A DNA stretch of 64,000 nucleotides from Acarospora socialis (taxonomy: Eukaryota; Ascomycota; Lecanoromycetes; Acarosporales; Acarosporaceae), in NCBI GenBank assembly GCA_025617375.2, contig JAMYGW020000010.1, forward strand, positions 372,001-436,000, read 5' to 3'. Shown here piece by piece: positions 34,648 to 59,692 of the stretch. The position numbers and the translations under genes are program-made. Numbering within the stretch: position 1 is the first letter of the stretch; each line of letters starts with the position of its first letter. The notes beneath the pieces were generated by a model, which ran no database searches, was not told where the DNA came from, and worked only from the letters and a program-made list of their open reading frames with translations.

Positions 34648-34653
34648 CGGGTA
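34648..34653. repeat. Left target-site duplication CGGGTA of the island
   Basis: CGGGTA here and at 59,687-59,692 immediately flank the inverted-repeat ends of the 25-kb island, as expected for a 6-bp target duplication. An 8-bp reading (TACGGGTA) is possible if the end is placed two bases further in. Confidence 0.8.
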
Positions 34654-35130
34654 TACGGTGGACGATAACGAGGTTACCGACACATCAAATTTTTTTTTGA
34701 ATTTTCGCAAACACATAGACATAGATTGTAGTAGAGAAATGATGATCTGTAAGTAAGTAATCAACATCATCATCATCATACAAACAAATCAATCATCTAC
34801 AAGAATGTCCACTTCTATTTCAGTGATCAATAATATAGTGTAAACACAGAACAACAAAGTAAATACTTTTCAATATAGAGACTGATCTGAGAAACTGATC
34901 ATATGAAGATATATGACAGTGAGTTTTAATTTAATATCACTCAGACACAGATTCTGAAGAAGTGAAGAAATGAAAAGAAAATAAAACTGTGATCAAAAAA
35001 GAATCAGATGATGACTTTCTATATTGAAACTGTTATCATATAGTTCTGATTTGTACAATCTACAGCAACATATTACATTACACATTACTGACATCTTTCT
35101 AGTGAGAAAGAGAACAAAAAGAAATATAAT
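34654..35130 (+). repeat. Left long terminal inverted repeat of outer element
   Basis: The first ~43 bp are identical to the reverse complement of the right end. Similarity continues with substitutions and small gaps to about 35,130, where CATTACACATTACTGACATC is shared by both arms. The total is about 0.47 kb on this side. Confidence 0.8.
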
Positions 35131-36489
35131 TCTTTAAATTATAGTAGATCATTAAGTTAATTCATAGATTCTACAAGCTGTACAGTTTTATTAAATGAAT
35201 AATAATGAAGTTCTTTGTACAACTGACACTCTGCTTTTTATCTAACTTTATTTTTACTCTTATTTTTAGATTCATTACTATCACAACTTCAATCATAATC
35301 ATTATGTAAGTACACAGAAATAGTTTTAATACATTGATGTTAACTGATCATATGATGTAAAACTCTTATCATATACAATACAGTTATTACTGTCACTGTT
35401 GCTCAGCAGAATTCTGTTTTCTTAGTAAAACAGCAACAGCTCACTTTCTTTGTTCACAGTTCACAGAATAAAAGACTTTTGATTCTTTTTGAGTGATCTG
35501 TGAAATTCATATGAAATGCAATTATTTCACAGCAGATTTCAACACACTGTTCTTTGTACATCAATGACATTTTTATTCAGTTTCATGAAAGAATCAAACA
35601 AACATGTATACAGTGCATGTCAGTTTTAAGACTTTTCTCAGAATGTTGTTGCATTGCAGAATATTTTGATGAAGTATGTGAAAACTACAAATAATGTGAT
35701 CATGCAGCTTACTGCTTCATATAAAATGACAATGAAAGTGCTGTTAATGAGAACAATGACAATATTGTGATAGTTAAAGAGCATTACTTAAGTTTAAATT
35801 CTGAGTCTGCTGAACATGAAGATGAATCATCATCAGAGAATGTTATTGTGTTGTGATAAATATGTACAAATTTTTTTTAATTTTCTTGTTGATTTTCATT
35901 CTTTACTTCTCATTTAATCATATAAGTTATTATGACATCTGAGCAAGACTTACACTTCTTTGCAGTGCTCAGAACTAGTAATTATAACAATAATGAAGTT
36001 AAGTAAGTCAGTAGATTAAATTTATAATCAATATAATTGTATTCAATTTGTACAATACTGTAGTTCATTGATATTATAGAAAGAAAATCAATTTTCTTGC
36101 TTATGTAATAATATACACAGTCACAATTATACAAATTTTAATTTTTAAATCATACAAATAGAATTCATTATTCACAATATCAGCACAAACTGTGAATCTT
36201 GACTTCTGCAAAGACTATATTATATAGTTGTTTTGAGAAAATCACTTCAGTCAAGATATTAACAGAAAACTTCAAGATAAGTTGAATATCATCTGCAGTT
36301 ATTGTACAATTGAGTGAAGATTGCAAGAATAATAAATCTCAAAGAAAATCAAAATCATTGACACTTCTGAACTACAAATTAAGATTGTTGCTTTGTTTTA
36401 TGAAGTATATCTCAATAATGTTTAAATACTACATGTATTGCAGAAGAAAGAACATGAAATTGAATTGTATAAAATTGTATAATTACAAA

Positions 36490-37480
36490 AAAAGATGAGA
36501 ATAATTCATCAACATTTTCTATTTAACATTGAAGAAACAAAAAAAGAGATGACACAGCTTGTGTTGAAAGAGTTGAATACTGATGTTATTGATGAATATA
36601 AATGAAAATTACTTCATATTCACTTTCATATGAAAGAATTCAACATTTATCAATATATCATTCTGATTCTATTTCTAATCACTTTTTGACATGTTGTATT
36701 AGAGATTATTTGTTTAATATAATCAAATATTTAAATTCTCAAGATCACATTTGTTGTACAAAAGATCTTCAACATCAGCATGAAGAATATATTGTGCTGA
36801 GACTCAATTATCTATGATTTATTGATGATCATGACAAACTGTCTTATTAAGACATTAAGATCTATGCTGAAATTGATGTCTATTTCAGATATTTATCATG
36901 AATTTATATTGATGTATCAAATTATACAACAGTCAGTGTGCTCTGTCAGTATCTAAATGTTGTTTGCAATCTGAAAGTACATTCTCAAAATTTTATGCTC
37001 TGATTGAGACAAGAAAACATTATTATGTGTGAAAGTTCATCATGTACTGAGTTGTACAACTGCAAATGAATATACACAACTGTCAAAGATTTATTTCTTT
37101 GACATCAGCACTGCAAATCAACAAATTGAAGCTTGATGAAGTCAGTTAATCAAAAGTTAACTGTTTCAATGACAGATAAGTTATTTCTATGTTGCTTCAT
37201 ACAATTTACTAAGTAACTTGTACAGACATTTTTCAGAGATCTTACACAGCAAGATCTTTAAAATGATATCAGTCTTGCAGACTGCATCACACTAGTGACA
37301 CTGTATATGTTTATCATTCAGCAAGAAGTTCATGACTATGTAAAATTATAAAACATTCATCTCATACAAAAACAAGCAAATCAATCAAATTCAGTAGTAA
37401 GTAATTCATAAATGTTATATCATTGTTCAGAAATTATCAACACTGAGAATTATGTGTTGAGAATGAATGAAGAAGTAATG
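36490..37480 (+). pseudogene. Decayed integrase-like gene of the outer element
   Basis: Short plus-strand stretches around 36.5-37.5 kb resemble, in order, parts of the fungal integrase-core (rve-type, DDE) family found in inverted-repeat elements. Resemblance is strongest around the region before and after the presumed catalytic core. It is a fossil with many breaks, and the assignment rests on family resemblance by eye. The remainder of 34.66-38.89 kb shows nothing else I can identify. Confidence 0.45.
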
Positions 37481-38895
37481 ATAATCATGTGAGTATTATA
37501 TAATGACTGAAATAAGTCTTCATCACAACTAATTGTACAATAGATACTGACTAAAAAGATATTGATAAATATCTTTCTGCTGTAACTCTTAAGTGATTTA
37601 CATCACAATTATAAGTATTGAGCATAATTCTGAAAGATATAAAAGCAGAAAATGTTCATACTGATGATTCACAATGTTATGTTGAGATGTACAAGTAATT
37701 ATGTACTATTATACAATCACATATTGTCTTCAAAATACATTCAATTCTGACAGAATCTGCTAAATCTCATAAAGATTATGTATATTAAAACAGAGAACTG
37801 ATTGAATATAATGAACATTATGAGTTAAGTGAGAATTTTGTACAAAATGATGACAAAGCAAGTTTTGTTGAAAATGAAATGCTTATTGATGTTAATTCAA
37901 AAAACATGTTGAATATCTATCTTCAGAAATTGTAATTCTTTTGTTTGCAAATCTTCTTTCTTTTTAGATAATTCAAATTGTACAAAATGATTTCTTCATC
38001 ATCATGAAATTCACATTGCATTCTTGAAGATGTTGTGTATTCTACTGAATATTTCTTCACTTAATACAAATACTGTTTTTATGATTGTAACATTATTAAT
38101 TTTCATTTTTCTGTCATCATTGATTTGAATGCTCTTTCTCTTAATTGTACAACTTGAAATTCTTTCTTCAGACATGAGAAAGATGCTCAATAAATTGTAA
38201 ATCATTATGTACTTCAAGTAACTCATATTGTTAAAAGTTAAAAAACTCATGCAGACACAACAGCTCTGAACAGTTATATGACTTCTTCATCAGTAATCAT
38301 CAATAATTAAGCTTTTAAACATTGCACAATCATTATTCTTGCATGACAAAAGTTCTTATGAACTTCTGATGATGAAAAGAAGTTAAGAAAGTTTGAATTA
38401 TATAATGATTTGAATCTTAACATCATTGCAATTCATAAAAACTTTTTTTAACTCAAATCTTTTGATATTGTACAAAACAACACTGTATATTTTTGTTGAA
38501 CAATCATCTCATTGATGATCTGTTATCTTTCATATAAAGTGACATTTTTTCAGAAATTAAACATTCTTCAGTCATACAACATTTTTATGATCTTTTTTGT
38601 CTTGCAGTTGCATAAAATATCAAGACAGATTCAGAACATATTGAGAACAAAGCAGTTATAAAGATTTTGAATGTCTTGACTTTATTGAGAGATTATTGCA
38701 TCAAAATAAATTATATGTATGAGTTGTGATTGATTGTTTTTGTAAAAAATGAGTTATATGATTTGAAAGAGATCAAGATAAAGAAGATTGATAAAGATAC
38801 AAAGATAAAGATCAAGAAGAAAGAACAGAAAAAAAAGTCTTTTTAAAGAATTAAATTGAATATTACTCAATCATTCAACTCATCTTGAATAAGTT

Positions 38896-39211
38896 TGTTA
38901 TGACCATACTCTAATAAGAAATAATGAAATGAAAGATATGTCTGAATGAGCATAACTCTGAGCATGAAACAATGAAACATCAGACATTCTCTTGTAAATA
39001 TGTGTCAGAAACACATCAGAACACTGAAACACTGAGTGTGTCAGTGTACTCATTTCTATATAGTAGAATCAATTTTTTTATGAAATCAATCATGTTCAAC
39101 TCATCTAGTTATGCAATACAAAGCTACTGTTTATCTAGAATCTTTGAATCTTTATATCAAAGAGCACAAACTCTAGCTCTATAACTGAGAAATCTCAGTT
39201 GAAACATAATA
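38896..39211 (+). repeat. 5' LTR of copy A
   Basis: A 316-bp LTR starting TGTTATGACC. It matches 58,175-58,490, and the gag start follows about 26 bp downstream. Confidence 0.85.
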
Positions 39212-39401
39212 CTTTGAACACTCTTACAATATAAAGAATGTCATTCAAAGAATCAATCTCAGACAGTGTGTCACAGAGCATTAAATCAACAAAAGTAGTC
39301 AACATTGATTACAGAGTATCTAAAGTCAAGACTTTAGAGAACTTTATGAAAGATTAATGAAATTTGAGACAATTTCTTGCTCAAATTGACCTGTATATCA
39401 A

Positions 39402-39762
39402 TGTAATATTCTAATCTGAGCTTTCTTGAATATGTAGAACTAAGAGTTTGTGCTTATTGATATAACAGCTGGTCTGAAATGGTTCTGGTCTTTAACTCTT
39501 AGATGGTTATTTAAGTTGAACATGATTGTTTTCATAAGAAAAATGATTCTACTATATAGAATGTGCTTGACATCTCTGCATTGAGCATTCTTGGTGTTTT
39601 GATGTCTCAATGTTGAGAGATTGAGCTCTCAGCTTGTCTGCTCACCATTGAGCTGTTGTGCTGTCATGTAACTGCTGTCTAGCAGTTTCTTCTGTACATG
39701 CTCTGAGCAAATCTCTGATCACAGATCTGCAAGTTTTTTTCTTCTTGAATGTGATCATAACA
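39402..39762 (-). repeat. Divergent 3' LTR of copy C
   Basis: About 361 bp between TGTAATATTC and GTGATCATAACA. It aligns with the other LTRs at both ends but has a longer, different middle. No partner LTR is seen. Confidence 0.7.
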
Positions 39763-39837
39763 TCATTCTTCTCTTCTCAGGCACTAGTTCTCTAGAACCT
39801 ATATAAGTGAGAGTATTCACATTGTTCATCATCAACA

Positions 39838-40230
39838 ATGATGCTTTCTAAAAATTTCAATTGTCTAAAAATTGCAAAGAAAATTCAACTCAATGGTAGT
39901 CTTGTCACATTTTCTTGTGAATTCTGTACTGCTTGCAGTCTTGATTGCTTTGTCATGATTGATGAAAGATCAAAATGTGATAAGTGTACTTGTCACAGTC
40001 ATTCATGCATTGCAGTTTCATGAAAGTCTCTCAACAGAACTCATCTTTCTCTTCAAAAGAAAATAAGTGATGCAAATGTGATTCTTGATACTCTTATCAC
40101 CAAGATGATGCATCTTCAAAAGACTTTGAATCAAACAGATTGTCATGTCACACAGAAGATCAACTGTCTTGCTGCTGAACTTGATAGTGATAATGATGAA
40201 ACTGAGAATGAAGATTCTCAAACAATATCA
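39838..40230 (+). other. Antisense Cys-rich frame inside copy C
   Basis: Positional homologue of the frame in copy B. An open stretch at 39,838-40,023 holds CEFCTACSLDC and KCDKCTCHSHSC. Divergent, like the LTR of this copy. Confidence 0.55.
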
Positions 40231-42514
40231 TAACTTGTTAATTTGATGTTGTCATTCTTCTGAACTAATATTGACTTTTTTTCTTAAAATATTGAAGTGT
40301 TCTTGTGCAGTTCTTGAGGTTCTCTTTGAGTTCTCAGATATTTTCTGAGATGTCATAATCTTTTTATTTGATGAGATAATAAGCTTTTTCACTAATCACT
40401 CTCTTTCCTAGAATGTTCTCAACTTTGTATTCTTTGTTGAGTTTGACAGACATTTCACTGATTTGAAGTGATATGAACTGATTGCAATGCTGTAACATGA
40501 ATGCATGAAATACTGAGTGTATTCTCATTTTTCTGAGTAAGTCTAGCTCATAGCTCAATCTCTTGATGTCTCATATGATCTTGAATGATTCAATGCTCTT
40601 ATTCTCTAACTTCTTACTTCTTTTCTTTGTTCATATGTTGTCTGTTCTTAAATATATTTTTTCTTCTTCTTTGAATGATTTTGTCTCTGTTGTTCATTTC
40701 ATCTGCTGTCTGATTCATTTTGTTAGATCTTGATGCAGTTTCTTCATCTGTGTGATGTTCAAAATTACTTTTTAACTTCATAATCTGTGTTCTTTAGAAT
40801 CTTGTCATATCTTCAGATTGTAGTCATAGTTCATATAGAAAGATATTTCTTCTGTGATCTTGTTTCTTATGTTGTTGTATGCAAACTGTGTCATTGACAA
40901 TAGTCATATTCAGTCATTCTGATTTCTGTTGACATAGTGTTTCAAGTATGTTTTCATTGTTTGATTCATTTGTTTGCTTTGTTTATTTGTCTGTGAGTGA
41001 TATATCATCAACATCTTGTGTTTTATTTCAAGTTCTGCTGTGAGTGTTTTTCAAAACTTGCTTGTAAACAGCTTGTCTCTGTCAGTGATAAATTCTTTTG
41101 ATAGCTCATGAATACTAATCAATTTTTGCAGTATAATGTACATCAATACTGATGCTGTTGTGGTTTTCTTGAATGAAATGAACATTGTGTACTTGGTTAA
41201 TCTGTTCACTATGATCAATATACTATTGAATTTCACTCTTCATGCTGAATCTTTTGACAGTGACAATCTCATAATGAAGTTCATGATAACTGACTTTCAT
41301 GATGTGTTCAGTGCATCTAGTCATGTTACTTTGTCATATCATTTGTCTCAGTTAATCTTGTTTCTTCAGCATAAATTGCACACAGTGATCATTCTGATGA
41401 CTCAATTTCTAAAATTGCTAACATTGTGTCTTCTCTGCACTAGATCTTCAGTGCATTTAACTTTTAGATATTCTTCAACTCTGCTGTAGTGACATATTCT
41501 TATGAGTTTTTCATCTGTCAAAGAAGCTTGCTTTATTTTGTACATTGCTGCTAAGTTCTTTATGAGAATTCTCTTGTTGTCTTTGCTCAGAATTCTGACA
41601 TGTACTGTTTGTATATCTTCATGATTGAGTTGTCTGCTCAGAGCATCTACTTCATTATTCTCATTATCTTTCTTGTAATGAATCTGAAATTCATAATCTG
41701 TCAACTGCTCTGCTCAATGAATCTGCTGTTAGTTAAGTTGCTTTGTTGTTGTGAAGTTTCTCAGATTCTTGTGATCTGTATAGATCTAAATTGACTTTTT
41801 TGTTTCTGCAAGATAAGATCTTCAATCTTGCAGTGCTTTCACTATCACAAGAAGTTTCTTGTCATGAATCTCATATCTTTTCTTGAGTTCTGATAGTTTT
41901 CTAAATTGATACACTATGAATTTTTGCTGTTCTTTCTCAATCTAATATAAGCATGTATTTACTGTGAAATCTGAAGCATCAGTTTTCAGTGTCTTCTTGC
42001 ATGCTGAATTGAGTATTCTCAGATGTGCTGTTCTGCTAAGACTTTTCTTTAATATGTGAAACACATTCTTCTGCTCTTCATCTCAATGCTATTTTTTGCT
42101 TTTGTGTGTCAAATGCATTAGTGATTTCACAATTCTTGCATAGTTTGATACAAACTTTCAATAGTAGTTCATCAATTCTAGAAAGACTTGTACTTTCTTG
42201 ATTCTTTTTGATATTAATCAGTTTCTGACTGCTTCTGTCTTCTTTGAATTCTTCTTGATCTGTTTAGATTGAATCATATAGTTTAGAAACTCAATTTTCT
42301 TGATTTCAAACCTGCTTTTTGACTTTTTCACATACAGAGCTCTTTCATTGAGCTTTGTCAATATCTTTTACACATGCTTGCAGTGCTCTTCAAGATCTTC
42401 TGAGTATATCAGAATGTCATTGAGATATGTGATCACAAAATCATCAAGATATTCTCTTAACATATCATTGATCAATCTCTGAAAGATGACTGAGACATTT
42501 TTTAGCTCAAACAG

Positions 42515-42832
42515 TGTTACATTTCAACTGAGATTTCTTGGTTATAGAGCTAAGGTTTTGTGCTTCATGATATAAAGATTCAAAGGTTCTAGGTAAACAG
42601 TAGCTTTCTATTGTGTAACTAGATGAGTTGAACACAATTGATTTCATAAAGAAATCAATTCTACTATATAGAATTGAGCACACTGACACACTCAGCATTT
42701 CAGTGTTCTGATGTGTCTTCAGGCACATGTTCATGAGGAAATGCTTGGTGTTTCATCATTTCATGCTTGAGATTACACTATCTCAGACATACCTCTCATC
42801 CTGTTGTTTCTTTCTAGAATATGATCATAACA
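42515..42832 (-). repeat. 3' LTR of copy B
   Basis: 318 bp. It pairs with 48,235-48,552, and the differences seen are essentially all transitions. Confidence 0.85.
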
Positions 42833-42910
42833 TCATTTCTTCTCTCTCAGGTGCTAGTTCTCTAGAATTTATTTAAGCAAGAGTATATATCAGCACCTGC
42901 TCACCACATC

Positions 42911-43365
42911 TTGATGATGCATTTGAAATTCAAAAATCAACTTTGCCTTGCTGATACCATATTCCATAAAGAAAATCCTGCACTTGTTTCCTGTGATTGT
43001 TGTTTAGACATTGATCTCTCTTGTATCACAATGTCTCTTGATCTGTTGGTGTTGTCTGACTTCTTTAAGTCTGCAAAGTGTGTCAAGTGCATACATCAAG
43101 GTTGTTTCTGTGTCAGCCTCTCTCTTGACTTTCTTGAGTCTGTTCACTCTAAAATCAAAAATGAACTTTTTCTGACTCTTGATGAGCAACTTTCTGCACT
43201 TTTAACAAAAATTGCTAGGTTGCAGAAAACCTTGAAACAGTCTGAAACTTGAATTGATACAAAAGCAAAGTGTCTCACTGAAGAGCTTGCTGATGATAAT
43301 GATGAAACAGAGAATGAAAATTCTCAACTGTTGTCACAACTCATTGACATGATGTCTCCATTCTT
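42911..43365 (+). other. Antisense Cys-rich/coiled-coil frame inside copy B
   Basis: A plus-strand frame (open for 113 codons from 42,911) in the gap between integrase and 3' LTR of copy B, opposite in direction to the element's own genes. It contains clustered cysteines (CDCCLDIDLSC and KCVKCIHQGCFC) followed by a heptad-like stretch (LLTKIARLQKTLKQSE). A TATATA box-like word lies about 30 bp upstream. The Cys pattern KCxxCxxxGxxC followed by a coiled coil resembles a widespread fungal hypothetical family often found near retrotransposons. Related sequence occurs at the same place in A, C and D. Confidence 0.65.
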
Positions 43366-46300
43366 CTGAACTAATCTTGACTTCTTTTTTCAAAATGTTG
43401 AAGTGTTCTTGCACAGTTCTTGAGGTTTTCTCTGGGTTCTCAGGTGTTCTTCAATGTATTGTATTCTTTTCATTTTATGAGATAATGAACTTTCTCACTA
43501 ATCATTCTCTTTTCTAGAATGTTCTTGACTTCATATTCTTTGTTGAGTTTAACAGGTGTTTCTGTGATCTGAAGTGGTATGAACTGGTTGCAAGGCTGTA
43601 GCATGAATGTGTGAAATACTGAGTGTATTCTCATTTCTTTGAGTAAGTCTAGCTCATAGCTTAATTTCTTGATGTTCCATATGATCTTAAATGATTCAAT
43701 GCTCTTGTTCCTCAGCTTCTTGCTCTTTTTCTTTGTTCATATATTATCTGTTCTTAGATATACTCTTTCTTTCTTCTCAAATGATCTTATCTTTGTTGTT
43801 CATTCCATCTGCTGTCTGATTCATTCTGTCAGGTCTTGGTGCAGTTTCTTTATTTGAGTGATATTCAGAATCACTTTTTGACTCTGTGATTTGTGTTCTC
43901 TTGAATCTTGCCATACCTCTGAGTTGTAGTCATAGTTTGCATAAAAAGGTGTTTCTTTCATGATTTTATTTCTTGTGTTGTTGTACACAAACTGTGCCAT
44001 TGACAACAGCTGTACCCAGTTGTTCTGATTCTTGTTGACATAGTGTTTCAAGTATGTTTTCACTGTCTGATTCATTTGTTCACTTTGTTCATTCATCTGT
44101 GAATGATATGCCATTAACATCTTATGTTTTATCCTGAGTTCTGCTGTAAGCATTTCTCAAAACTTGCTTGTAAACAGCTTGTCTCTGTTGATGATAAACT
44201 CTTTTGATAGTTCATGATTGCTGACCAATTCTTGTAGTATGGTGTATGTCAATACTGGTGCTGTTGCAGTTTCTTTAAATGAAATGAACATTGTGTACTT
44301 GGTTAATCTGTTCACTATAGTCAATATACTGTTGAATCTTACTTTTCATGCTGAGTCTTTTGATGGTGATAACTTTGTAATGAAGTTCATGATAACTGAC
44401 TTTCATGATGCATCTGATGCATTTAGTTGTGTTACTTTGTCATATTGCTTCTCTCAATTGATCTTATTTCTTCAGCATGAATTGCACACAGCAATCATTC
44501 TGATGATTCAATTTCTAAGATTGTCAATATTGTGTCTTCTTCACACTAACTCTTTGATGCATTTAACTCTCAGATGTTCTTCAGTTCAGCTGTAGTGACA
44601 TATTCTGATGAGTTCTTTGTCTGTTAAGAAAGCTTGCTCTATCTTGTACATTGCTGCTAAGTTCTTCATGAGAATTCTGTTGTTGTCTTTGCTCAGAATT
44701 TCAGCATGTATCATCTGTATGCCTTCATGATCAGATTGTCTGCTCAAGACATCTGCTCTGTTGTTCTCATTATTCTTCTTGTAATGAATTTGAAATTCAT
44801 AATCTGTCAACTGTTCTGTCCAACAAACTTGTCATTGATTGAGTTGCTTTGTCATTGCAAAGTTTCTCAGATTCTTGTGATCAGTATAGATCTGAATTGA
44901 CTTGTTGATTTCTGCAAGATAAGGTCTTCAGTTTTGCAGTGCTTTCACTATTGCAAGAAGTTTCTTGTCATGAACCTCATATCTTTTCTTGAGTTCTGTT
45001 AGTTTTCTAAATTGATATGTTATGAGTCTCTGCTGTTTCTTCTCAATCTGATATAAGTATGTGTTTACTGTGAAGTCTGAAGCATTGATTTTCAGTGTCT
45101 TTTTGCATGCTGAATTGAGTATTCTCAGGTGTGCTGTTCTGCTAAGACTTCTCTTTAATGCATGAAATGCATTCTTCTGCTTCTTATCTCAATGCTATTC
45201 TTTGCTCTTGTGTGTTAAATGCATTAGTGATTTCACAATCTTTGCATAATTTGGTACAAACTTTCAATAATAGTTTGTCAACCCTAGGAAGACCTGTACT
45301 TCCTTGATTCTTTTTGATGTAAGTCAGTTTCTGACTGCTTCTGTCTTCTTTGAATTCTTTTTGATCTGTTCAGATCAAATCACATAGTTTAGAAACTTAA
45401 CTTTCTTGATTTCAAACCTGCTTTTTGATTTCTTCATGTACAGGGCTCTCTCTTTGAGTTTTGTCAATATTTTGTGCACATGCTTTCAGTGCTCTTCAAG
45501 GTCTTCTGAATATATCAGAATATTGTTGAGATATGTGATCACAAAATCATTGAGATACTCTCTCAACATGTCATTGATTAGTCTCTGAAAGGTGGCTGAG
45601 GTGTTTTTTAGCTCAAATGACATAATGATGTACTCATAATGTCTGTATCTTGTCTGAAATGCTGTTTTTCATTCTTCATCTTCTTTCATTCTGACTTGAT
45701 AGTAGGTGTTTTTCAGGTCTAAGCTTGTGAACTACTTGACTTTGTTTAACTGGTCTTGCAACTCTTCTATCAATGGTAGAGAATAACTATCTTGATGAGT
45801 TATCTTGTTGAGTTGTCTGTAGTCAACACATAGTCATTTTCTGTCATCTTTCTTTGATACAAATAAGATCAAATATTCTGCTGGTGATTTTGATGATTTG
45901 ATGAATTTTCTCTTTAGATTCTCATCAAGGTAAGTTCTAACTTTCTTGAGTTGATTCTTGCTCATTGAGTATAACAGCATTCACTTGAGTTGCTTTTCAT
46001 TCAATAGTGATATCTCATGATCCCATGACCTATGCTCTGATAAGCTCATTTCTGGCTGTTCAGGAATCTTGTATGTGTCTTTGATTGCACATATTTCTTT
46101 TGTAACTCAATCAATTCATGAATTCTTTCTGCACAATCAGGACATTCCTAGTACTGCATCATATCTGATTGATCTCATAACATCAAATGTTATCTCTTGT
46201 GAGTTTTCAAGAATTGAGACCTTCACACAGATCTCTTTGTTAATCTTTTCAGTGACTTCATTTGTCATGTGTATGTTGAATGAACAGCACACTCACTGTG

Positions 46301-48234
46301 TCACTAATTCTAACATGTCAACTATTCATTTGTTTATAATATTACCATCTGCTCCAAAATCCACCAATGCATTGATCTGGTGTTTGTTAATTGTGATCTT
46401 GGTTCATATTCTGTGACTATTGTCTTGTTTTTGAGATGTTGCTAGCTTCTTTTTCTCTAGTCTTGTCAAGAAAGCTCTTCATTTTTTGACTCATCTGATC
46501 ATTCAGCTCATCTTCAAAGTTTCTGAAACCATCTGGGTTTCTTTCTGATCATAAGATTTGCATACTCTAGGCTGTGTTGCTCAATGTGTCTTTTTGGGTG
46601 TAGTTGAGATTCATACTGATCATATTTCATCTGCAATTGACTCTCAAAGACTCTTATTCTTTGCAGAAATTCAGATGATATATATTCTTCACTGAAGATT
46701 CATCTGTCTTCATTCTGTGTGATATATTCTTCAGATAAGTGTATCTCAATCTTGTGACTCTTTGTTCTTCATATAAGGGATTTCAGCAATGTTGTGTTGT
46801 CACTGTCAGAACATTTGTCTTTAACAGCTATCATCAGCTCTTTTAGCTGGTTGCATGTCTTTTGTTCTTTCACACTCTTGTGTTGTGCTTCCCATTTTCA
46901 AGCTTGCATCTCTTGTTCAAGTTTCTTTTTCTTGAACTGAAGCTTTTCTTCTTTCAATGCTCTTTGTTGATTTTTGAAATGCTGATATGCTGTCTTCAGC
47001 TTCATGTTGACTTCTCATTGATCAACTTCTTCTTGATCTGCATTCAAATTCAAGACAATTCAGATGCTATCACTGTAGTCTTCTTCTATCTGAGTATCTT
47101 GAGTATCAACTTCTTTGATCTCAGTCTCTAGAACACATAGTTCTTTTCTTACAGTGTTGTCTGATCTAGACCATTCTGTGATATTGTAAGTTTCTTGTTT
47201 CTGGTGTGACTTCTTTGAATAATATTTGACTTTGTTCTTGCTGCTCATGTGGGTTCAACACATGTTGTCATAGCAAGTCATTCAACTGAGATCATCATGC
47301 ACTACTTTCTTAGTTACAATTGCAGCTTTCTTTCTTTCTTTTCTGGGTTTCTTGCAATTCTGTGCAAGATGTTCAGTAATATCACAGTTGTAGCACTTTT
47401 GTGTTTCTCAGTAGCTCAAAGACTTTTCTCTTGAGAATCATTTCTTTTCTTGTGATGCTTCTTCTGACCTTCATGCTGAAGGTTGATCTCACTTTATTGT
47501 GTTGAGATTCATGAGGTTCAAGTAATGTTGTCTTTGATTACTTCTATCAGCTCAACTCATTCATTTCTGATGTCAGTAGCCTCTTTTTTTCATCTGTTGC
47601 TCTCATTGACAATCATCTATTGTGATTGTCTTGTTAATAAGTTCTTGCAGATCATCTGACCTGTCACTTTGCACAATCTTGTTCTTGATAGACTTCTTCA
47701 AGCCTCAATAGTAAGTTGATGCTAATTGATCTGAGTTTCATTGCATAAGCATCACAATTCATTGAAACTCTGCCACATACTTAACTGCAGATTCTTCTTG
47801 CTGTAACATGTGAATCTTCTGTTTTGCTGCATGTTTCTCATCAACTACCTTGAAGGTTCTTCTTAGCTCTTCTTTGAACTGCATTCAGTTTTCTATGCAA
47901 GACATATTTTATTCTTGATTGAGAATGCTCTTGATCATGAACTTGTTGAGCTGTGATTTGATTCAATCAAACATTGTGTTCTTCATGTAGAATGTTGTGA
48001 ACAAGACTCTGTTGACATCACTTTCAAACTTCTTCTGATTGAAGTCAACATACAGGTTGATTTGGACAAGAAATTGTCTCAGATTTCATTGATCTCTCAT
48101 AAAGTTCTCTGGAGTCTTGACTTTGAGTACTTTGTGATTGATGTTGACTATCTTTGTCAGTTCAATACTCTGCAACACATCACCTGAGATTGATTCTTTG
48201 AATGACATTCTTTATATTGTGAGGGTGTTCAAAG

Positions 48235-48552
48235 TGTTATGTCTCAACTGAGATTTCTTGATTATAGAGCTAAGATTTTGTGCTTCATGATATAAAGATT
48301 CAAAGATTCTAGATAAACAGTAGCTTTCTATTGCATAACTAGATGAGTTGAACACAATTGATCTCATAAGAGAATTGATTCTACTATATAGAATTGAGCA
48401 CACTGACACACTCAGCATTTCAGTGTTCTGATGTGCTCTCAGACATATGTTCATGAGAGAATGCTCAGCATTTTGTTGTTTCATGCTTGAGATTACACTA
48501 TCTCAGATGTACTTCTTGTCCTGTTGTTTCTTTCTAGAGTATGGCTGTAACA
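48235..48552 (-). repeat. 5' LTR of copy B
   Basis: 318 bp, followed on the plus strand by the AACAG duplication and the remaining reverse-transcriptase part of copy C. Confidence 0.85.
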
Positions 48553-48816
48553 AACAGCATAACAATGTACTCATAATGTTCATATCTTGTTCAGAATGCT
48601 GTCTTTCATTTTTTATCTTCTTTCATTCTAACTCAGTAATAGACATTCTTAAGATTTAAGCTCATGAATCACTTAGTCTTCTCTAACTGATCTTGCAACT
48701 CTTTTATCAATGGTAGAAAATAACTATCTTGATGAGTTATCTCATTGAGTTGTCTATAATCAACACATAGTTGTTTCTTGTCATCTTTCTTCAGTACAAA
48801 TAGAATTGAATATTCT

Positions 48817-49133
48817 TGTTACATCTCAACTGAGATTCCTCAATTATAGAGCTAGAGTTTGTGCTCTTTGATATAGAGGTCCAAAGGTTCTAGATAAACA
48901 GTAGCTTTGTATTGTGTAACTAGATGAGTTGAACATGATTGATTTCATAAGAAAATCAATCCTACTATATAGAAATGACCACACTGACACACTCAGTGTT
49001 TCAGCATTCTGGTGTGCCTTCAGGCACATGTTCATGAGGAAATGCTCAGCATTTCATCATTTCATGCTCAAGATTACACTACTTCAAGCATATCCCTTGT
49101 TCTGTTATTTCCTTCTAGAGTATGATCATAACA
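48817..49133 (-). repeat. 3' LTR of copy D
   Basis: 317 bp. It pairs with 54,536-54,852, with mainly transition differences. Confidence 0.85.
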
Positions 49134-49214
49134 TTATTTCTTCTCTCTCAGGTGCTAGTCCTCTAGAATCTATTTAAGCAAGAGTATATATCAGCACCTG
49201 CTCACCACATTCTG

Positions 49215-49670
49215 ATGATGCACTTGAAATTTAAAAATTGACTTTGTCTTGCTGATACTATATTTTGTAAAGGAAATTCTGCACTTGTCCCTTGTGATTG
49301 TTGTCTAGACATCAACCTCTCTTGTATCACAATGTCTCTTGATTCATTGACCTCATCTGACTCCTCTAAGTCTGCAAAGTGTGCTGAGTGTGTGTGTTGA
49401 GGTTGTTTCTGTGTTGGTCTCTCTCTTGACTCTCTTGAGTCTGTTTGCTTCAAAATCAAAAATGAGCTCTCTCAAGCTCTCAATGAGCAACTTCCCACAC
49501 TTTTAACAAAAATTGCTAGGTTGCAGAAAACCTTGAAACAGTCTGAAACTTGAATTGATACAAAAGCAAGGTGTCTTGCTGAGGAACTTGCTGATGATAA
49601 TGATGGAATGAAGAATGAGAATTCTCAATCATTGTTGCAACTCATTGACATGATGTCTCCATTCTTCTGA
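49215..49670 (+). other. Antisense Cys-rich region inside copy D
   Basis: DNA closely similar to the antisense frame of copy B, in the same position between integrase and 3' LTR. Not intact. Confidence 0.5.
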
Positions 49671-52600
49671 GCTAATCTTGACTTCTTTTCTCAAAACATT
49701 GAAGTGTTCTTGCACAGTTCTTGAGGTTCCCCTTGGGTTCTCAGGTGTTTTCTGATGTATTGTATTCTTTTCATTTTACAAGATAATGAGCTTTTTCACT
49801 AATCATTCTCTTCCCTAGAATGTTCTTGACTTCATATTCTTTGTTGAGTTCAACAGGCATTTCCATGATCTGAAGTGGTATGAACTGGTTGCAACACTGT
49901 AGCATGAATGCATGAAATACTGAATGTATTCTCATTTTCTTGAGTAAGTCTAGCTCATAGCTTAATCCTTTGATGTTTCATGTGATCTTGAATGATTCAA
50001 TGCTTTTGTTCTTCAGCTTCTTGCTCTTTCTCTTTGTCTGTATGTTATTCATTCTTAGATATACTCTTTCTTCTTCTTCAAATGATTTTACTTCTGTTGC
50101 TTGTTCCTTCTGCTGTTCAATTCATTCTGTTAGGTCTCAGTGCAGTTTTTTCATCTGTGCAATGTTCAGAATCACTTTTTGACTCTGTGATCTGTGTTCT
50201 CTTGAATCTCATCATATCTCTGAGTTGTATTCATAGCTCACATAGAAAGGTGTTTCTTTCATGGTTTTGTTTCTTGTGTTGTTGTATGCAAACTGTGCTG
50301 TTGACAACAGCCATACTCAGTCATTCTGATTCTTGTTGATATAGTGTCTCAAGTATGTCTTTACTGTCTGATTCATTCATTTGCTTTGTTCATCTGTCTG
50401 TGAGTGATATGCCATTGACATCTTGTGCTTTATTCTGAGTTCTGCTGTAAGCATTTCTCAAAACTTGCTTGTAAACAGCTTGTCTCTGTCAGTGATAAAT
50501 TCCTTTGGTAGTCTGTGATTGCTAATCAATTCTTTCAGTATCATGCATGTCAATATTGGTGCTGTTGTGGTTTCTTTGAATGAAATGAACATTGTGTACT
50601 TTGTCAATCTGTTCACTATGATCAATATACTATCAAATCTTATCCCCCATGCTGGGTCCTTGAACAGTGACAGCTTCATAATGAAGTTCATTGTAACTGA
50701 TTTTCATGGTGTGCTCAGTGCATTCAGTCATGTTACTTCATCATATCATTTATCTCAGTTGACCTTGTTTCTTCAGCATGAATCACACACAGCAATTATC
50801 TTGATGACTCAATTTCTGAGATCACTAACATTGTGTCTTCTTTGCACTAGATTCTCTGTGCATTTAACTTCTAAGTGTTCTTTGATTCTGTCATGATGAC
50901 ACATTCTAATGAGTTCTTCATCTGTCAAGAGGTTCTGCTTCATCTTGTACATTGCTGTTAAGCTCTTCATGAGAATTTTGTTGTTGTCTTCACTCAGAAT
51001 TCTGATGTGTATTGTCTGTATATCTTCATGATCAGATCATCTACTCAAGGCATCTGCTTCTTCATTCTCATTACTTTTCTTGTAATGAATCTGGAATTCA
51101 TAATCTGCTAACTGCTCTGCTCAACAAACTTGTCATTGATTGAGTTGCTTTGTTGTTGCAAAGTTTCTCAGATTCTTGTGATCTGTGTAGATCTGAATTG
51201 ACTTGCTTGTTTCTGCAAGATAAGATCTTCAGTCTTGCAGTGCTTTCACTATTGCAAGAAGTTTCTTGTCATGAACCTCATATCTTTTCTTGAGTTCTGA
51301 TAGTTTTCTAGATCAGTATGCTATGAATTTCTGCTGCTCTTTCTCAATCTGATATAAGCATGCTTCTACTGCAAAATCTGAAGCATCAGTTTTCAGTATC
51401 TTTTCACATGTTGAATTGAGTATTCTCAGGTGCACTTTTCCACTAAGACTTCTCTTTAATATGTGGAATGCATTCTCCTGTTCTTTGTCTCAATGTCATT
51501 TTTTGCTTTTGTGTGTCAAGCACATTAGTGGTTCCACAATCCTTGCATAATTCAGTACAAACTTTCAGTAGTAGTTCATCAATTCTAGAAAGACCTGTAC
51601 TTTCTTGATTCATTTTAGTCTTAATCAGTTTCTGACTGCTTCTGTCTTCTTTGAATTCTTCTCAATCTGTTCAGGTTGAATTACATAGTCTAGAAACTCA
51701 ACTTTCTTGGTCTCAAACCTGCTTTTTGACTTTTTCACATATAGAGCTTGCTCATTGAGCCTTGCCAGTACCTTGCACACATACTCACAGTGCTCTTCAA
51801 GATCTTCTGAGTATATCAGGATGTCATCAAGGTACATGATCACAAAATCATTGAGATATTCTTTCAACATGTCATTGATCAATCTCTGAAAGGTGACTGG
51901 GGCATTCTTTAGCTCAAATGACATAACAGTGTACTCATAATGTTTATATCTCATTCAGAATGCCATTTTCCATTCTTTCTCTTCTTTCATCCTGACTTGA
52001 TAATAGGCATCTTTAAGGTCTAAGCTCATGAACCACTTAGTCTTACCTAATTGGTCTTGCAACTCTTCTATCAATGGTAGTGGATAACTATCTCAGTGAG
52101 TTATCTCATTGAGTTGTCTGTAGTTGACACACAGTCATTTTCTGCCATCTTTCTTTGGTACAAACAGAATCAGATATTCTACTGGTGACTTTGATGATCT
52201 GATGAATTCTCTCTTCAGATTCTCATCAAGGTAAGTTTTAACTTTCTTGAGTTGGTCCTCACTCATGGGGTATAGTGGCATTCACTTAGATTGCTTTTCA
52301 CCCAGTAGTGATATCTTGTGATCTCATGACTTATGCTCTGGTAAGCTCATTTCTGACTGTTTGGGGATCTCATATGTGTCTTTGATTGTGCATATTTCCT
52401 TTGTAACTCAATCAATTCATGAATTCTTTTTGTGTAACCAGAGCATCCCTAGTACCACATCATATCTGATTGATCTCATAACATCAAACATTATTTCTTG
52501 TGAGTTTCCAAGAATTGAGACCTCCACACAGGTTTCCTCATCAATTCTTTTGATGAATTCATTTGTCATGTGTACATTGAATGGACAGTGCACTCACTGT

Positions 52601-54535
52601 GTCACTAATTCTAGCATGTCAACTACTCTTTGATTTATAATATTACTGTCTGCTCCAGAATCTACCAATGCATTGATCTGGTGTTCATTAATCATGATCT
52701 TGATTCATACTCAATGATCATTGTCTTGTTTCTGAGATGCTGCTAGCTCCTTATTCTCTAGTCTTGTTGAGGGAGCTTCTCATTTTTTGACTCATTCAGT
52801 CATTTGACTCATCTTCAAAGTTCTTGAAACCATTCTGGTTCCCTTCTGATCATAAGACTGACATACTTTAGACTGTACTGCTCAATGTGTCTCTCTGAAT
52901 GTAGTTGAAGTTTGTACTGATTGTACTCTGTCTGCAACTGACTCTTCAAGACTCTTACTCTTTGCAGAAATTCAGATGATATATACTCTTCACTGAAGAT
53001 TCATCTGTCTTCATTCTGCATGATATATCCTTCAGATAAGTGTATCTCAATCTTGTGACTCTTTGTCTTTTAAACAAGAAATTTTGATATTGTCACATCA
53101 TTGCTGTCAAGACATTCATTTCTAACAGCTGTCATCAGCTTCTCTAGCTGATTGTATGTCTTTTGTTTCTTTGCATTCTTGTGCTGCACTTTTCATTTTC
53201 AGACTTGCATTTCTTGCTCAAGCTCTCACTTCTCAAACTGAAGCTTTTCTTCTTTCAATGTTCATTGTTGATTCTCAGAGTGCTGACATGCTGTCTTCAG
53301 CCTCATGTTGACTTCTCATTGATCAACTTTCTCTTGATTCACATTCAAATTCAAGACAATCCAGATACTATCACTGTAGTCTTCTTCTACCTGAATATCT
53401 CAAGTATCAACTTCTTTGATCTCAGTCTCTAGAACACATAGTTCTTTTCTCACAGTGTTGTCTGATCTGAACCATTCTGTGATATTGTAAGCTTCTTGTT
53501 TCTGGTGTGACTTCTTTGAATAATATTTGACTTTGTTCTTGCTGTTCATGTGAGTTCAACACATGTCATCAAAGCAAGCTGTTCAGCTAAGATTGTCATG
53601 CACTACTTTCTTAGTTGTGATTGCAGCTTCCTTTCTTTCTTTTCTGAGTTTCTTGCAATTCTGTGCAAGGTGTTCAGTAATATCACAGTTGTAGCATTTT
53701 TGCATTTCTCAGTAACTTGAAGACTTTCCTCTTGAGAATCATTTCTTTCTCTGTGGTGCTTTCTTCAGTTTTCACATCAAAGATCAATCTTGCTTCATCA
53801 TGTTGAGATTCATAGAGTCTAAGTAATGTCATCTTTGATTGCTTCTATCAGCTTGACCCATTCACTCTTGATGTCAGTAGCCTCTTTTTTCCATCTGTCT
53901 TTCTCATTGGCAGCTGTTTATCATGATTGTCTTGTTGATAAGTTCTTGCAGGTTGTCTGACCTGTTGCTTTGTACAATCTTGTTCTTGATAGATTCTTTC
54001 AAGTCTCAATAGTAAGTTGATGCTAACTGATTTGGGTTTCATTGTGTAAGTGCTGCAATCCATTGAAACTCTGCCACATACTTGACTGCAAATTCTTCTT
54101 GTCATAACATGTGAATCTTTCATTTCATCACACATTTCTCATCAACTACCCCAAAGATCCTTCTTAGCTCCTCTTTGAACTGCATTCAGTTTTCTATGCA
54201 AGATGTATTCTGCTCTTGATTGGGAATGCTCTTGATCATGAACTTGTTGAGCTGTGATTCAATTCAATTGAATGCCGTGTTCTTCATGTAGAATGTTGTG
54301 AACAAGACTCTGTTGATGTCACTTTCAAACTTCTTCTGATTGAAGTCAACATACAGATTGATTTGAGCAAGAAATTGTCTCAGATTTCATCAATCTCTCA
54401 TAAAGTTCTCTGAAGTCTTGACCTTAGATACTTTGTGATTGATGTTGACTATCTTTGTCAGTTCAGTGCTCTGCAACACATCACCTGAGGTTGATTCTTT
54501 GAATGACATTCTCTATATTGTAAGGATGTTCAAAG

Positions 54536-54852
54536 TGTTACATCTCAACTGAGATTTCTCAGTTATAGAGCTAGAGTTTGTGCTCTTTGATATAGAGATT
54601 CAAAGGTTCTAGATAAACAGTAGCTTTGTATTGCATAACTAGATGAGTTGAACACAATTGATTTCATAAGAAAATCAATCCTACTATATAGAAATGATCA
54701 CACTGACACACTCAGTGTTCCAGCATTCTGATGTGCCTTCAGGCACATGTTCACAAGAAAATGCTCAGCATTTCATCATTTCATGCTTGAGATTACACTA
54801 CTTCAAGTGTATCCCTTGTTCTGTTATTCTCTTCTAGGGTATGGTTGTAACA
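54536..54852 (-). repeat. 5' LTR of copy D
   Basis: 317 bp. The gag start lies about 26 bp downstream on the minus strand. Confidence 0.85.
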
Positions 54853-57649
54853 CATAACAAGATGCTCTAATTATGTGAAAAGAATCTGAGAATTGACTGA
54901 GTTACAAAAGAAATATGTGCAGTTAAGAACACATATAAGATTTCTGAACAATCAGAAATGAGCTTATCAGAGTATAAGTTATGAAATCACAAAATATTGC
55001 TATTGAATAAGAAGCAATCTAAGTGAATGTCATTATACTTAATGAGTGAGAATCAGCTCAAGAAAGTAAGAACTTATCTTGATGAGAATCTAAAGAAAGA
55101 ATTCATAAAATCATTCAAATCACTGACAGAATACTCAATTCTGTTTATATCAAAGAAGAACAACAGAAAACAACTATGTGTCAACTACAGATAACTCAAC
55201 AAGATAACACATCAAGATAGTTATTTTCTATCATTGATAGAAGAATTACAAGATCAATTAGACAAAGTTAAGTGATTCACAAGCTTAGATCTTAAGAATG
55301 TCTATTATCAAGTTAAAATGAAAGAAGATAAAGAATGAAAAATGACATTCTGAACAAGATATGAACATTATGAGTATACTGTCATGTTATTTGAGTTAAA
55401 AAATGCATCTGTTATCTTTCAGAGATTGATCAATGACATATTGAAAGAATATCTCAATAATTTTGTGATCACATATCTTAACAATATTCTGATATACTCA
55501 GAAGATCTTGAAGAATACTGTGAGCATGTGTGCAAAATATTGACAAAACTCAAAGAAAGAGTCTTGTACATGAAAAAGTCAAAAAGCAGGTTTGAGATCA
55601 AGAAAGTTGAGTTTTTAAACTATATAATTCAATCTAAACAAATCAAGAAGAATTCAAAGAAAACAGAAGCAGTCAGAAACTGATTAATATTAAAAAGAAT
55701 CAAGAAAGTACAGGTCTTTCTAGAGTTAATGAACTATTATTGAAAGTTTGTATCAAATTATGCAAGAATTGTGAAATCACTAACACATTTGACATGCAAA
55801 AGCAAAAAATAGCATTGAAATAAGAAGCAGAAGAATGCATTTCATGTATTAAAGAAAAGTCTTAGTGAAATGACACATCTGAGAATACTCAATTCAGTAT
55901 GTGAAAAAACACTGAAAACTGATGTTTCAGATTTTGCAATAAAAACATATCTATATCAGATTGAGAAGAAACAACAGAAACTCATAACATATCAATTTAG
56001 AAAACTATCAGAATTCAAGAAAAAATATGAAATTCATGATAAAGAACTTCTTGCAATAGTGAAAGCACTACAAGACTGAAGATCTTATCTCACAAAAATA
56101 AGCAAGTCAATTCAGATCTACACAGATCACAAGAATCTGAGAAACTTTGCAACAACAAAGCAACTTAATCAACAACAAGTTCATTGAACAGAGCAGTTGA
56201 CAGACTATAAATTTCAGATTCATTACAAGAAAAGTAATGAGAATGATGAAGTAAATGTTTTGAGTAGACAATCTGATCATGAAGACATACAAACAATACA
56301 CATCAAAATTCTGAGCAAAGATGACAACAAAATTCTTATGAAGAGCTTAGCAGCAATGTACAAGATGAAATAAACACTCATGACAGACAAAAAACTCATA
56401 AAAATATGTCATTACAGCAGAATCAGAGAACACTTAGAAGTTAAATGCATCAAAGATCTAGTGCAAAGAAGACACAATGTAACAATTTTAGAAATTGAGT
56501 CATCAGAATGATTACTGTGTGCAATTCATGTTGAAGAAACAGAATCAGTCAAGATAAATGATATGATGAAGTAACACAACTAGATGCATCAGACACATTG
56601 TGAAAGTCAGTCATCATAAACTTCATTATAAAGTTATCACTGTTCAAAGACTCAGCATAAGAAATAAAATTCAATAGTATATTGATCATAGTGAACAGAT
56701 TGATCAAGTACACAATGTTCATTTCATTCAAGAAAACTGCAACAGCATCAGTATTGATGTACATTATACTGCAAGAATTGATTAGCAATCACAAGCTATC
56801 AAAAGAATTTATCATCAACAGAGACAAACTGTTTACAAGCAAGTTTTGAGAAACACTCACAGCAGAACTCAGAATAAAACACAAAATATTGATGACATAT
56901 CACTCACAGACAGACAGACAAAGTAAATGAATGAATCAGACAATAAAAATGTATTTAAAACACTATGTCAACAAGAATCAGAACAACTGAGTATGACTAT
57001 TGTCAATAGTACAGTTTGTGTACAACAACACAAGAAACAAGATCATGAAAGAGATGCTCTTCTATGTGAACTATGACTACAATTCAAAGATATGACAAGA
57101 TCTCAAAGAACATGAATCACAAAGTCAAAAAGTGATTTTGAACATCACTCAGATGAAGAAACTACATCAAAATCTAATGAAACAGATTGAACAGCAGACA
57201 GAATAAATGATGAAAACAAGATCATTTAAAGAAGAAAAAAAAGTATATCTGAGAACAGACAACATATAAATCAAAGAAAGAAACAAGAAGCTGAAAAATA
57301 AGAGCATTGAATCATTCAAGATCATATGAAACATCAAGAAACTAAGTTATGAGTTAAATTTACTCAAGAAAATGAGAATACACTCAGTATTTTATGCATT
57401 CATGTTACAGCATTGCAATCAGTTCATATCACTTCAAATCACTGAAACACCTGTCAAACTCAAAAAAGAATATGAAGTTGAGAACATTCTAAAAAGAAGA
57501 ATGATTAGTGAAGAAGCTCACTATCTCATAAAATGAAAAGACTACAATATCTCAGAAAATATCTGAGAACTCAAAGAGAATCTCAAGAACTGTGCAAGAA
57601 CACTTTGACATTTTGAGAAAAAAGATCAAGATTAATTCAGAAGAATGAA

Positions 57650-58090
57650 GACATTGTGTTGATGAGTTGTAATAATGATTGAGAATTTTCATTCTCTGTC
57701 TCATCATTATCATCTGCAAGCTCTTCAGCAAGACACTTTGCTTTTGTATCAATGTGAGCTTCAGACTGTTTTAAGGTTTTTTGCAATTTAGCAATTTTTG
57801 TTAAAAGTGTGAAAAGTTGCTCATCAAGAGTCTGAGAAAGCTTGTTTTCAGTTTTTGAACAGACAGACTCTAAAGAATCAAGAAAGAGATCAATGCAGAA
57901 ACAATCTCAATGCACACACTTGACACATTTTGCAGATCAGAACAAATCAGACAATATTAAGAAATCAGAAGACATCATAATGCAAGAGAAATCAATGTTT
58001 AAACAACAATCACACAGAATAGATGCAGAATTCTCTTTGTGAAATATGATATCAGTGAGACAAAGATGATTTTTGAATTTCAGATGCATT
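57650..58090 (-). other. Antisense Cys-rich region inside copy A
   Basis: Because copy A lies on the plus strand, its antisense frame is on the minus strand. It is again between integrase and 3' LTR and shares the coiled-coil part. Not intact. Confidence 0.5.
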
Positions 58091-58174
58091 GCTGAAAGAT
58101 GATGAGCAAAGTGCTGATATATACTCTCACTTAAATAGACTCTAGAGAACTAGTGCCTAGAAGAAAGAAGATGA

Positions 58175-58490
58175 TGTTATGATCATACTCTAATAAGAAA
58201 TAGTGAAACAAAAAGTACATCTGAGTGAGCATAATCTCAAGCATGAAATGACAAAACACCAGACATTTTCTCATGAGTATGTGCCAGAGACACACCAGAA
58301 CACTGAAACACTGAGTGTGTCAGTGTGTCTGTTTCTATATAGTAGAATTGATTTTCTTATGAAATTGATCATGTTCAACTCATCTAGTTATGCAATACAA
58401 AGCTACTGTTTATCTAGAATCTTTGAATCTTTATATCAAAGAGCACAAACCCTAGTCCTATAACCAAGGAATCTCAGTTGAAACATAACA
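58175..58490 (+). repeat. 3' LTR of copy A
   Basis: A 316-bp LTR starting TGTTATGATC and ending AAACATAACA, followed by the AAGTT duplication. Confidence 0.85.
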
Positions 58491-59164
58491 AAGTTGTACA
58501 ATTTTATTTCTAAAATTCTCTATTAATCTCTATATTAGAAAGATACATTATTCAGAGATCAATTAACAACTTTAAAAAACTCTACTACTGCAGAATTTGA
58601 TATTTCTTCAGATGATAGTTTGTTGATGTATTGTATGAGAATTGATGATCACAAAAAATGACTTATGTGCTTGTATTGAGAAATATATAGAATACTTGTG
58701 CTAGAAATATACACTATTGTCATCATTGACTGTGCAGACTGATTAGTTGATTAAGTTGACTGCAGTCAACTTAATTTACTCATATAATTCAGATTCTGAC
58801 ACTAGAGTTAATTAAAACAATGAAAGTAGTTAGAATACTGCACTTCTTGACAGCTTGTTATCTTAATGTATTAATACATATTTATTTTCTATTTAAAATA
58901 TTTAACTAATGTCTGAGTTATACAATCTAAATATATTTGAACTGTCTGTTTCTTCTGTTTCTTTTTTTTCTTCTTTTTTCTGATTTTATTGATCTTAATA
59001 TTCACATTGTAATCACATCTGATCATGTGATCATATCAGTAACAGTTGCTGTAAACATTTCAAAAATTCTCTGATATAAAAATACATTTCTATACATCAT
59101 TAATATCATATAACTTGAATTTCAGAAAGTAATACTTGAAATGAACTGTTCTCTCTATCACACT

Positions 59165-59686
59165 CAGTACATTTTTTTTTGTTCTTTTTCTCACTAAAAA
59201 GATGTCAGTAATGTGTAATGTTGTATATTACTGTAGATCATATGAATTAGAACTGTATAATAATTGCTTCAATATATAAAGTTTGCTGCAACATGCTGAT
59301 CATGACATGATTCTTTTTCAGCTGCATTTTGATTTTCATTTCATCTCTTCATTTCTTCAGAATCTGTGTCTGAGCATTGTTGAATTGAAATTCACTATTG
59401 TATATCTTCATATGATCAGTTTTTCAGATCAGTCTTCATATTAAAAAGTATTTACTCTGTCTTTCTGTGCTTGTGTCATATCATTGATGACTGAAATGAA
59501 GATGATCATTGTTGTAGTTGATGAGTTTGTTCATACAACAATGAGAGTGTTGATTATCTACTTATAGATCACGATTTCTCTACTACAATCTATGACTATG
59601 TGTTGTTAATGGTGAATATTCATTAACACTTTGTGAAAATTTGAAAAAAATTTGATGTGTCGGTAACCTCGTTATCGTCCACCGTA
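59165..59686 (-). repeat. Right long terminal inverted repeat of outer element
   Basis: The mirror of the left arm, about 0.52 kb, longer by a few small insertions. The outermost bases read ...CCTCGTTATCGTCCACCGTA. Confidence 0.8.
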
Positions 59687-59692
59687 CGGGTA
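59687..59692. repeat. Right target-site duplication CGGGTA
   Basis: Matches 34,648-34,653 and marks the return to ordinary host DNA. Confidence 0.8.

Follow-up and report, generated by a model that had tools for sequence, protein, structure and literature searches.

A 25-kb AT-rich island in Acarospora socialis, probably a dead IS3EU-type DNA transposon enlarged by nested retrotransposons, and the mutation pattern of its copies

The DNA analyzed here, called the window, is a 64,000-nucleotide stretch of the Acarospora socialis genome (assembly GCA_025617375.2, contig JAMYGW020000010.1, positions 372,001–436,000). It contains a 25-kb block (34654–59686) that is framed by inverted repeats and by the hexamer CGGGTA on either side, and in which the GC content drops, at 1-kb resolution, from about 0.50 outside to 0.25–0.37 between the ends. 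The two inverted arms are identical at 43 of 43 bases in their outermost parts; further inside, identity is 79% (34710–35014 against 59300–59604) and 83% (35014–35128 against 59168–59282). In all these points, namely the perfect ends, the repeats of about 0.5 kb, the duplication and the edges of the AT-rich block, the original prediction made from the letters of this stretch agrees with our analysis. We interpret the block as a single dead cut-and-paste DNA transposon, filed in the IS3EU superfamily by its ends, duplications, and putative integrase core, and assign this reading a probability of roughly 0.87. The features are collected in Table 1.

Table 1. Anatomy of the AT-rich block (positions are those of the window).
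Feature	Position	Strand	Remark
Left target-site duplication, CGGGTA	34648–34653	.
Left 43-bp perfect terminal inverted repeat (TACGGTGGACGATAACGAGG...)	34654–34696	+
Left inverted repeat arm, ~0.5 kb	34654–35128	+	inward of the 43-bp end, identity 79% and 83% in ungapped stretches
IS3EU-type element, first piece	34654–38892	-	positions 5489–1195 of insert-free copy C3:548647-554135
Broken transposase gene, approximate extent	36170–37970	+	edges estimated by offset from aligned core; internal frame jumps
Transposase catalytic core remnant	36704–37299	+	window copy frame-shifted before second D
Nested block, at least 4 Ty3/Gypsy copies	38893–58496	.	RVT_1, RNase H and Tf2-1-type SH3 pieces
IS3EU-type element, second piece	58497–59686	-	positions 1190–1 of insert-free copy C3:548647-554135
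Right inverted repeat arm, ~0.5 kb	59168–59686	-
Right 43-bp perfect terminal inverted repeat (...CCACCGTA)	59644–59686	-
Right target-site duplication, CGGGTA	59687–59692	.

Without the nested DNA the window element measures 4239 + 1190 = 5429 bp and is reversed relative to the reference, an insert-free copy on another contig (C3:548647-554135, 5489 bp), of which its two pieces span 5485 of 5489 positions. This collinearity bears out the expectation that the whole block is a single insertion carrying nested copies and is about 5.4 kb long when stripped of them. The DNA that splits the element is retrotransposon sequence of about 19.6 kb. Ten open reading frame (ORF) pieces of it were scanned, and three scored above the cut-off for retrotransposon families (RVT_1, RNase H, and Tf2-1 SH3). 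One Ty3/Gypsy copy (39396–42511) resumes at 48558–48816 past a further inserted copy, and another (54862–57735) is inverted. The same Gypsy retrotransposon is common genome-wide (348 candidates, 40 of them scored), and the idea that it prefers the IS3EU-type element as a target was dropped because it occurs throughout the genome. On this reading the 25-kb AT-rich island is ordinary transposon layering.

The genome of the organism itself (31.1 Mb, 38 contigs) was searched with the left 547 bases of the element, which gave at least 41 matches (40 of 50 candidates scored), many of them as oppositely oriented pairs; a 3.1-kb interior query gave at least 44. We fetched 24 copies or part-copies and placed them on the coordinates of the reference. 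Two further copies are insert-free (C4, 5490 bp; C10b, 5486 bp). For 16 copies both ends could be placed, the other eight of the 24 being without at least one intact located end; the right end of C1c, for example, is truncated, and C10c has its right end, the left one not being found within the 201 bases examined. Identical 6-bp flanks surround 11 of the 16 two-ended copies (cgggta in the window, C12 gtgcac, C7 atctga, C6 gtactc, C1a atttat, C5 cccgag, C1b ctaatg, C3 atcaaa, C4 cccttg, C11 actcac, C2b ggcaaa), and in another two the flanks differ by transitions only (C10a ggacac/gaacat, C10b actgac/actggc). The proposal that the terminal sequences would lead to further copies with inverted ends and 6-bp duplications therefore held for the shared terminus and for most flanks, and failed for the remaining three copies, which are discussed below. 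Since at least 41 end matches, many in oppositely oriented pairs, coincide with 11 of 16 identical hexamers, the signal lies above chance.

A few observations on individual copies stand apart. One stretch of contig C10 (217–431 kb) holds five of the 24 sequences fetched, including that of the window. The flanks of the copy at L048/L049 (C2:3466082-3482404), ttggcttgccat and tggcaaagcttc, look less like a direct than like an inverted duplication. The copy at L023/L024 (C2:443236-453860), whose flanks form no duplication, carries nested DNA in which long frames of 494 and 423 amino acids are open, the first with an integrase match; this nested DNA apparently escaped mutation.

A transposase gene became visible through comparison with two diverged loci, L037 and L038, which are likewise AT-rich and share 68–70% identity with the interior query. 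Among the matches listed, a minus-strand frame of C4 can be aligned to about 620 codons of L037 at 24% identity (E 5e-31), and the core frames of C3 and C4 match the relatives at 42–48% identity. In 21 copies the core forms one aligned stretch and could be read; 17 of them keep the spacing D-58-D-41-E. Of the other four, the window copy and L039 have a frameshift ahead of the second D, L036 goes out of frame between there and the E, and in L045 30 bases are inserted. For profile searches we used an alignment of 15 rows, composed of the 13 of these 21 copies without a core indel and the two relatives. The Pfam family rva_4 (PF24764, integrase core) matches 11 of the 15 rows at E values up to 10, at best with 21.2 bits (E 2.6e-4), and three other families match two, one, and one rows. 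In the window copy the match is weak (36788–36988, 16.3 bits) and falls within the region, 36.5–37.5 kb, where an integrase-like remnant had been predicted. Over 117 core codons, transversions between L021 and L037 number 19 at first, 14 at second, and 34 at third codon positions, and 250, 184, and 442 against L037 when summed over 13 copies; this is the mark of a coding frame once under selection.

Searched against the genome, PF24764 finds 12 weak places, 11 of them in the fetched copies and one (C2:2922909) outside them. None of the 12 exceeds the cut-off, and all contain stops; the family is therefore probably immobile in this genome. The generic integrase model PF00665 has ten places in the genome, none within the element's own sequence; its matches at C10:422404-422628 (window 50404–50628) and in the C2 copy were rejected as the element's integrase, as both sit in nested insertions. 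One might ask whether the integrase signal as a whole stems from a nested retrotransposon, the outer element being a non-coding inverted-repeat element. The window block is indeed packed with Ty3/Gypsy pieces, but the core occupies the same element position in the insert-free copies C3, C4, and C10b, which refute this idea, and it also matches the diverged second family, leaving the explanation next to no probability.

The reading-frame jumps in the putative transposase gene fall at places common to the copies and may be introns or old indels. Positions that would be Trp in the transposase family read TGA or TAA, never TGG, in 13 of 13 rows. The source may thus have been dead even before it was amplified, but a change of CpC to TpC after the burst could yield the same pattern.

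Several results count against the IS3EU reading. Three of the 16 two-ended copies have unlike flanks (C2 tgtgag/cgcagg, C3b ctccgc/tctgtg, C2e tgccat/tggcaa). Matches to the relatives are also given by other frames, those of the opposite strand included, as is expected of homologous DNA, and the choice of frame therefore rests on the core and the codon-position counts. Among the 17 copies with conserved spacing, the first D is replaced by N in six and the E by K in three. The rva_4 scores stay below the curated cut-off of 26 bits, and four of the 15 rows are unmatched; rva_4 presumably belongs with IS3EU, a literature search by name having given nothing relevant among the papers listed. Six-frame Pfam scans of three insert-free interiors yielded no integrase match, and the core profile run against the PDB set gave no integrase and chance matches only. 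Mutation and frame jumps probably dilute the signal in the whole-interior scans; the core was recovered by the genome search with PF24764 and by in-frame alignment of the copies. Finally, the second family has a 5-bp duplication, which would reach 6 bp only on the assumption that a base has disappeared.

Members of IS3EU terminate in TA..TA, usually duplicate 6 bp of target DNA, and have a transposase that lacks the upstream H-H-C-C zinc pattern, as does that of Polinton (PMC10045372). Elements of rust fungi in this superfamily end in TAYGG..CCRTA, with 6-bp duplications and inverted repeats above 30 bp (PMC12730594). The element described here has IS3EU features in its ends, duplication length, inverted repeats, integrase-type transposase, and absence of H-H-C-C. 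Its window termini, TACGG..CCGTA, fit the rust motif, some other copies having transition variants of these ends; its duplications are of 6 bp, exact in most two-ended copies; its terminal inverted repeat is perfect over 43 bp and degenerate over about 0.5 kb; and its core is of the integrase-type DDE kind, with a Pfam score below the curated cut-off. The H-H-C-C pattern was absent upstream of the core in three of three copies (three frames each), a weak test in mutated sequence, and does not separate IS3EU from Polinton. Ginger1 and Ginger2 make 4- or 5-bp duplications (PMC10045372), as opposed to the 6 bp found here. Contrary to LTR retrotransposons and retroviruses, the element has inverted ends, and reverse transcriptase matches occur only in the nested block.

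Polinton/Maverick elements are large and carry polymerase B and virion-type genes. A shrunken member of this group would share with our element the 6-bp duplication and the absence of H-H-C-C (both given for Polinton in PMC10045372), as well as inverted repeats of about 0.5 kb and an integrase. However, insert-free copies reach only 5.49 kb, and their TACGG..CCGTA ends are the IS3EU signature of rust fungi. The six-frame scans of three copies showed no polymerase, capsid, or ATPase family, their sole match being a chance-level intein domain; this is a weak argument, as they also missed the integrase. We consider a Polinton origin highly improbable. Somewhat less remote, though still improbable, is an integrase-type DNA transposon that belongs to no named superfamily and resembles IS3EU just in its end motif and the length of its duplication. 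The repeats of about 500 bp speak for such an element, as do the sub-threshold Pfam match and the fact that the likeness to IS3EU is drawn from features; against it, agreement with IS3EU extends to the five-base end motif, the 6-bp duplication, and the integrase core, and the TAYGG start recurs in a second family of this genome. The original prediction had seen in the combination of long inverted repeats, 6-bp duplication, integrase, and small size a possibly undescribed integrase-type family. This suggestion is not upheld, as the combination fits IS3EU as characterized in PMC10045372 and PMC12730594, with Styx as an ascomycete example (PMC10853768).

The second family comprises L037 (from 3803, with the right end in L053) and L038 (from 1311), both beside GC-normal DNA. 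It starts with TAYGGGYGACTAAG (L037 begins TATGGGTGACTAAG, L038 TACGGGCGACTAAG) and ends in ..CGCCCGTA, and its flanks share gcctt. It is diverged but IS3EU-like, with a broken integrase-type transposase common to both families. Some ORFs of L038 resemble reverse transcriptase by eye. About 1 kb from the end of the second family lies an ORF of 635 amino acids (L037:949-2856), which may resemble a gene of choline-sulfatase type. In the reading as IS3EU, the present work adds one and probably two families to the superfamily, for which Repbase listed 45 in 2022 (PMC10045372).

By analogy with the superfamily, the encoded transposase would have bound the outer 30–45 bp, cut the ends, and inserted them at a target site cleaved with a stagger of 6 bp. 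The divergence pattern suggests that the family then spread in one recent burst and that a homology-directed defence mutated the copies, causing transition-only decay. Repeated insertion of the common Ty3/Gypsy retrotransposon would have expanded the window copy from 5.4 to 25 kb. Pairwise comparison of the copies (270 pairs) gives means of 11.1% for transitions and 0.41% for transversions; when C2d and C10d are left out (226 pairs), the values are 10.8 and 0.27%. Between the two arms of the element, in the insert-free copies L021, L022, and L031, the first 530 aligned columns contain a 40-base gap and 30 transversions, none of the latter in the outer 60 columns. On account of this gap and these transversions, the arms of about 0.5 kb probably diverged before the burst.

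Two dozen copies from one recent burst are a natural experiment on repeat mutation, showing at single-base resolution the preferred contexts, the outcome by strand, and the gradient towards the edges, and the resulting saturating, tip-sparing spectrum is the most interesting aspect of the family. Observed/expected ratios in the first and second window piece are 0.07 and 0.22 for CpG and 0.03 and 0.13 for CpC, against 0.88–0.94 for both dinucleotides in both flanks; CpA reaches 1.65 and 1.39, against 1.11 and 1.08 in the flanks. We defined a former CpG site as a column read in at least 15 copies in which at least two have TG and at least two CA, or at least two still have CG, with at most one departing copy, and recognized 169 such sites among 5486 dinucleotide columns. 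The 134 sites lying further than 500 bp from either end comprise 2894 cells, with 0 CG, 1072 TG, 1238 CA, and 575 TA. The 20% of TA would fit one hit at each CpG followed by the background rate at CpA, where about 20% of interior cells are mutated (343 sites). Survival of CG declines from the ends inward: 50 of 89 cells (56%) within 20 bp, 16/53 (30%) at 20–45 bp, 3/35 (9%) at 45–100 bp, and none at 100–200 bp (0/138) or 200–500 bp (0/340); CpA is unmutated at the four sites within 45 bp of an end. These terminal values come from few sites (eight CpG sites within 45 bp), and local alignment may drop badly mutated tips.

As a tentative reading that we hold to be possible rather than likely, repeat defence in this organism may be a saturating, CpG/CpC-directed hypermutation that hits practically every interior CpG of each repeat copy on one strand, giving TG or CA, then stops and fades over the last 50–100 bp of the repeat. 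It would stop because the CpG target is gone, and transposon tips would survive because of the fading. In the literature searched on CpC preference and CpG loss, including the accessible portions of PMC2621366, PMC3828140, PMC6141143, and PMC5555474, we found no description of a combined CpG/CpC spectrum with tip sparing. If correct, this process would be a distinct variant of the machinery of repeat-induced point mutation (RIP) with a measurable edge footprint.

Compared with known systems, the copies share with RIP the repeat-specific C-to-T and G-to-A transitions. RIP prefers CpA in most fungi, CpG-biased forms being known from Aspergillus nidulans and Microbotryum (PMC2621366); the spectrum here is opposite to that preference, with CpG and CpC nearly erased and CpA enriched. 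With IS3EU/GingerRoot the element has in common the TA..TA ends, the usual 6-bp duplication, and a DDE integrase-type transposase without upstream H-H-C-C, whereas the copies here are broken and have degenerate inverted repeats of about 0.5 kb, the likeness being one of features. The rust-fungus elements agree in duplication length, inverted repeats above 30 bp, and TAYGG..CCRTA ends; those described in PMC12730594 carry TET/JBP and alpha-kinase genes. An ascomycete counterpart is Styx of Zymoseptoria, an IS3EU-related element with an integrase gene, 6-bp duplications, and inverted repeats (PMC10853768), termed an IS3EU DNA transposon in PMC9970103. Styx copies also show RIP-like C-to-T and G-to-A mutations; in contrast to Styx, however, which is about 7.9 kb long, has inverted repeats of 36 bp and four coding sequences, and includes active copies (PMC10853768), the element of A. 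socialis has 5.49 kb and one recognized, broken gene.

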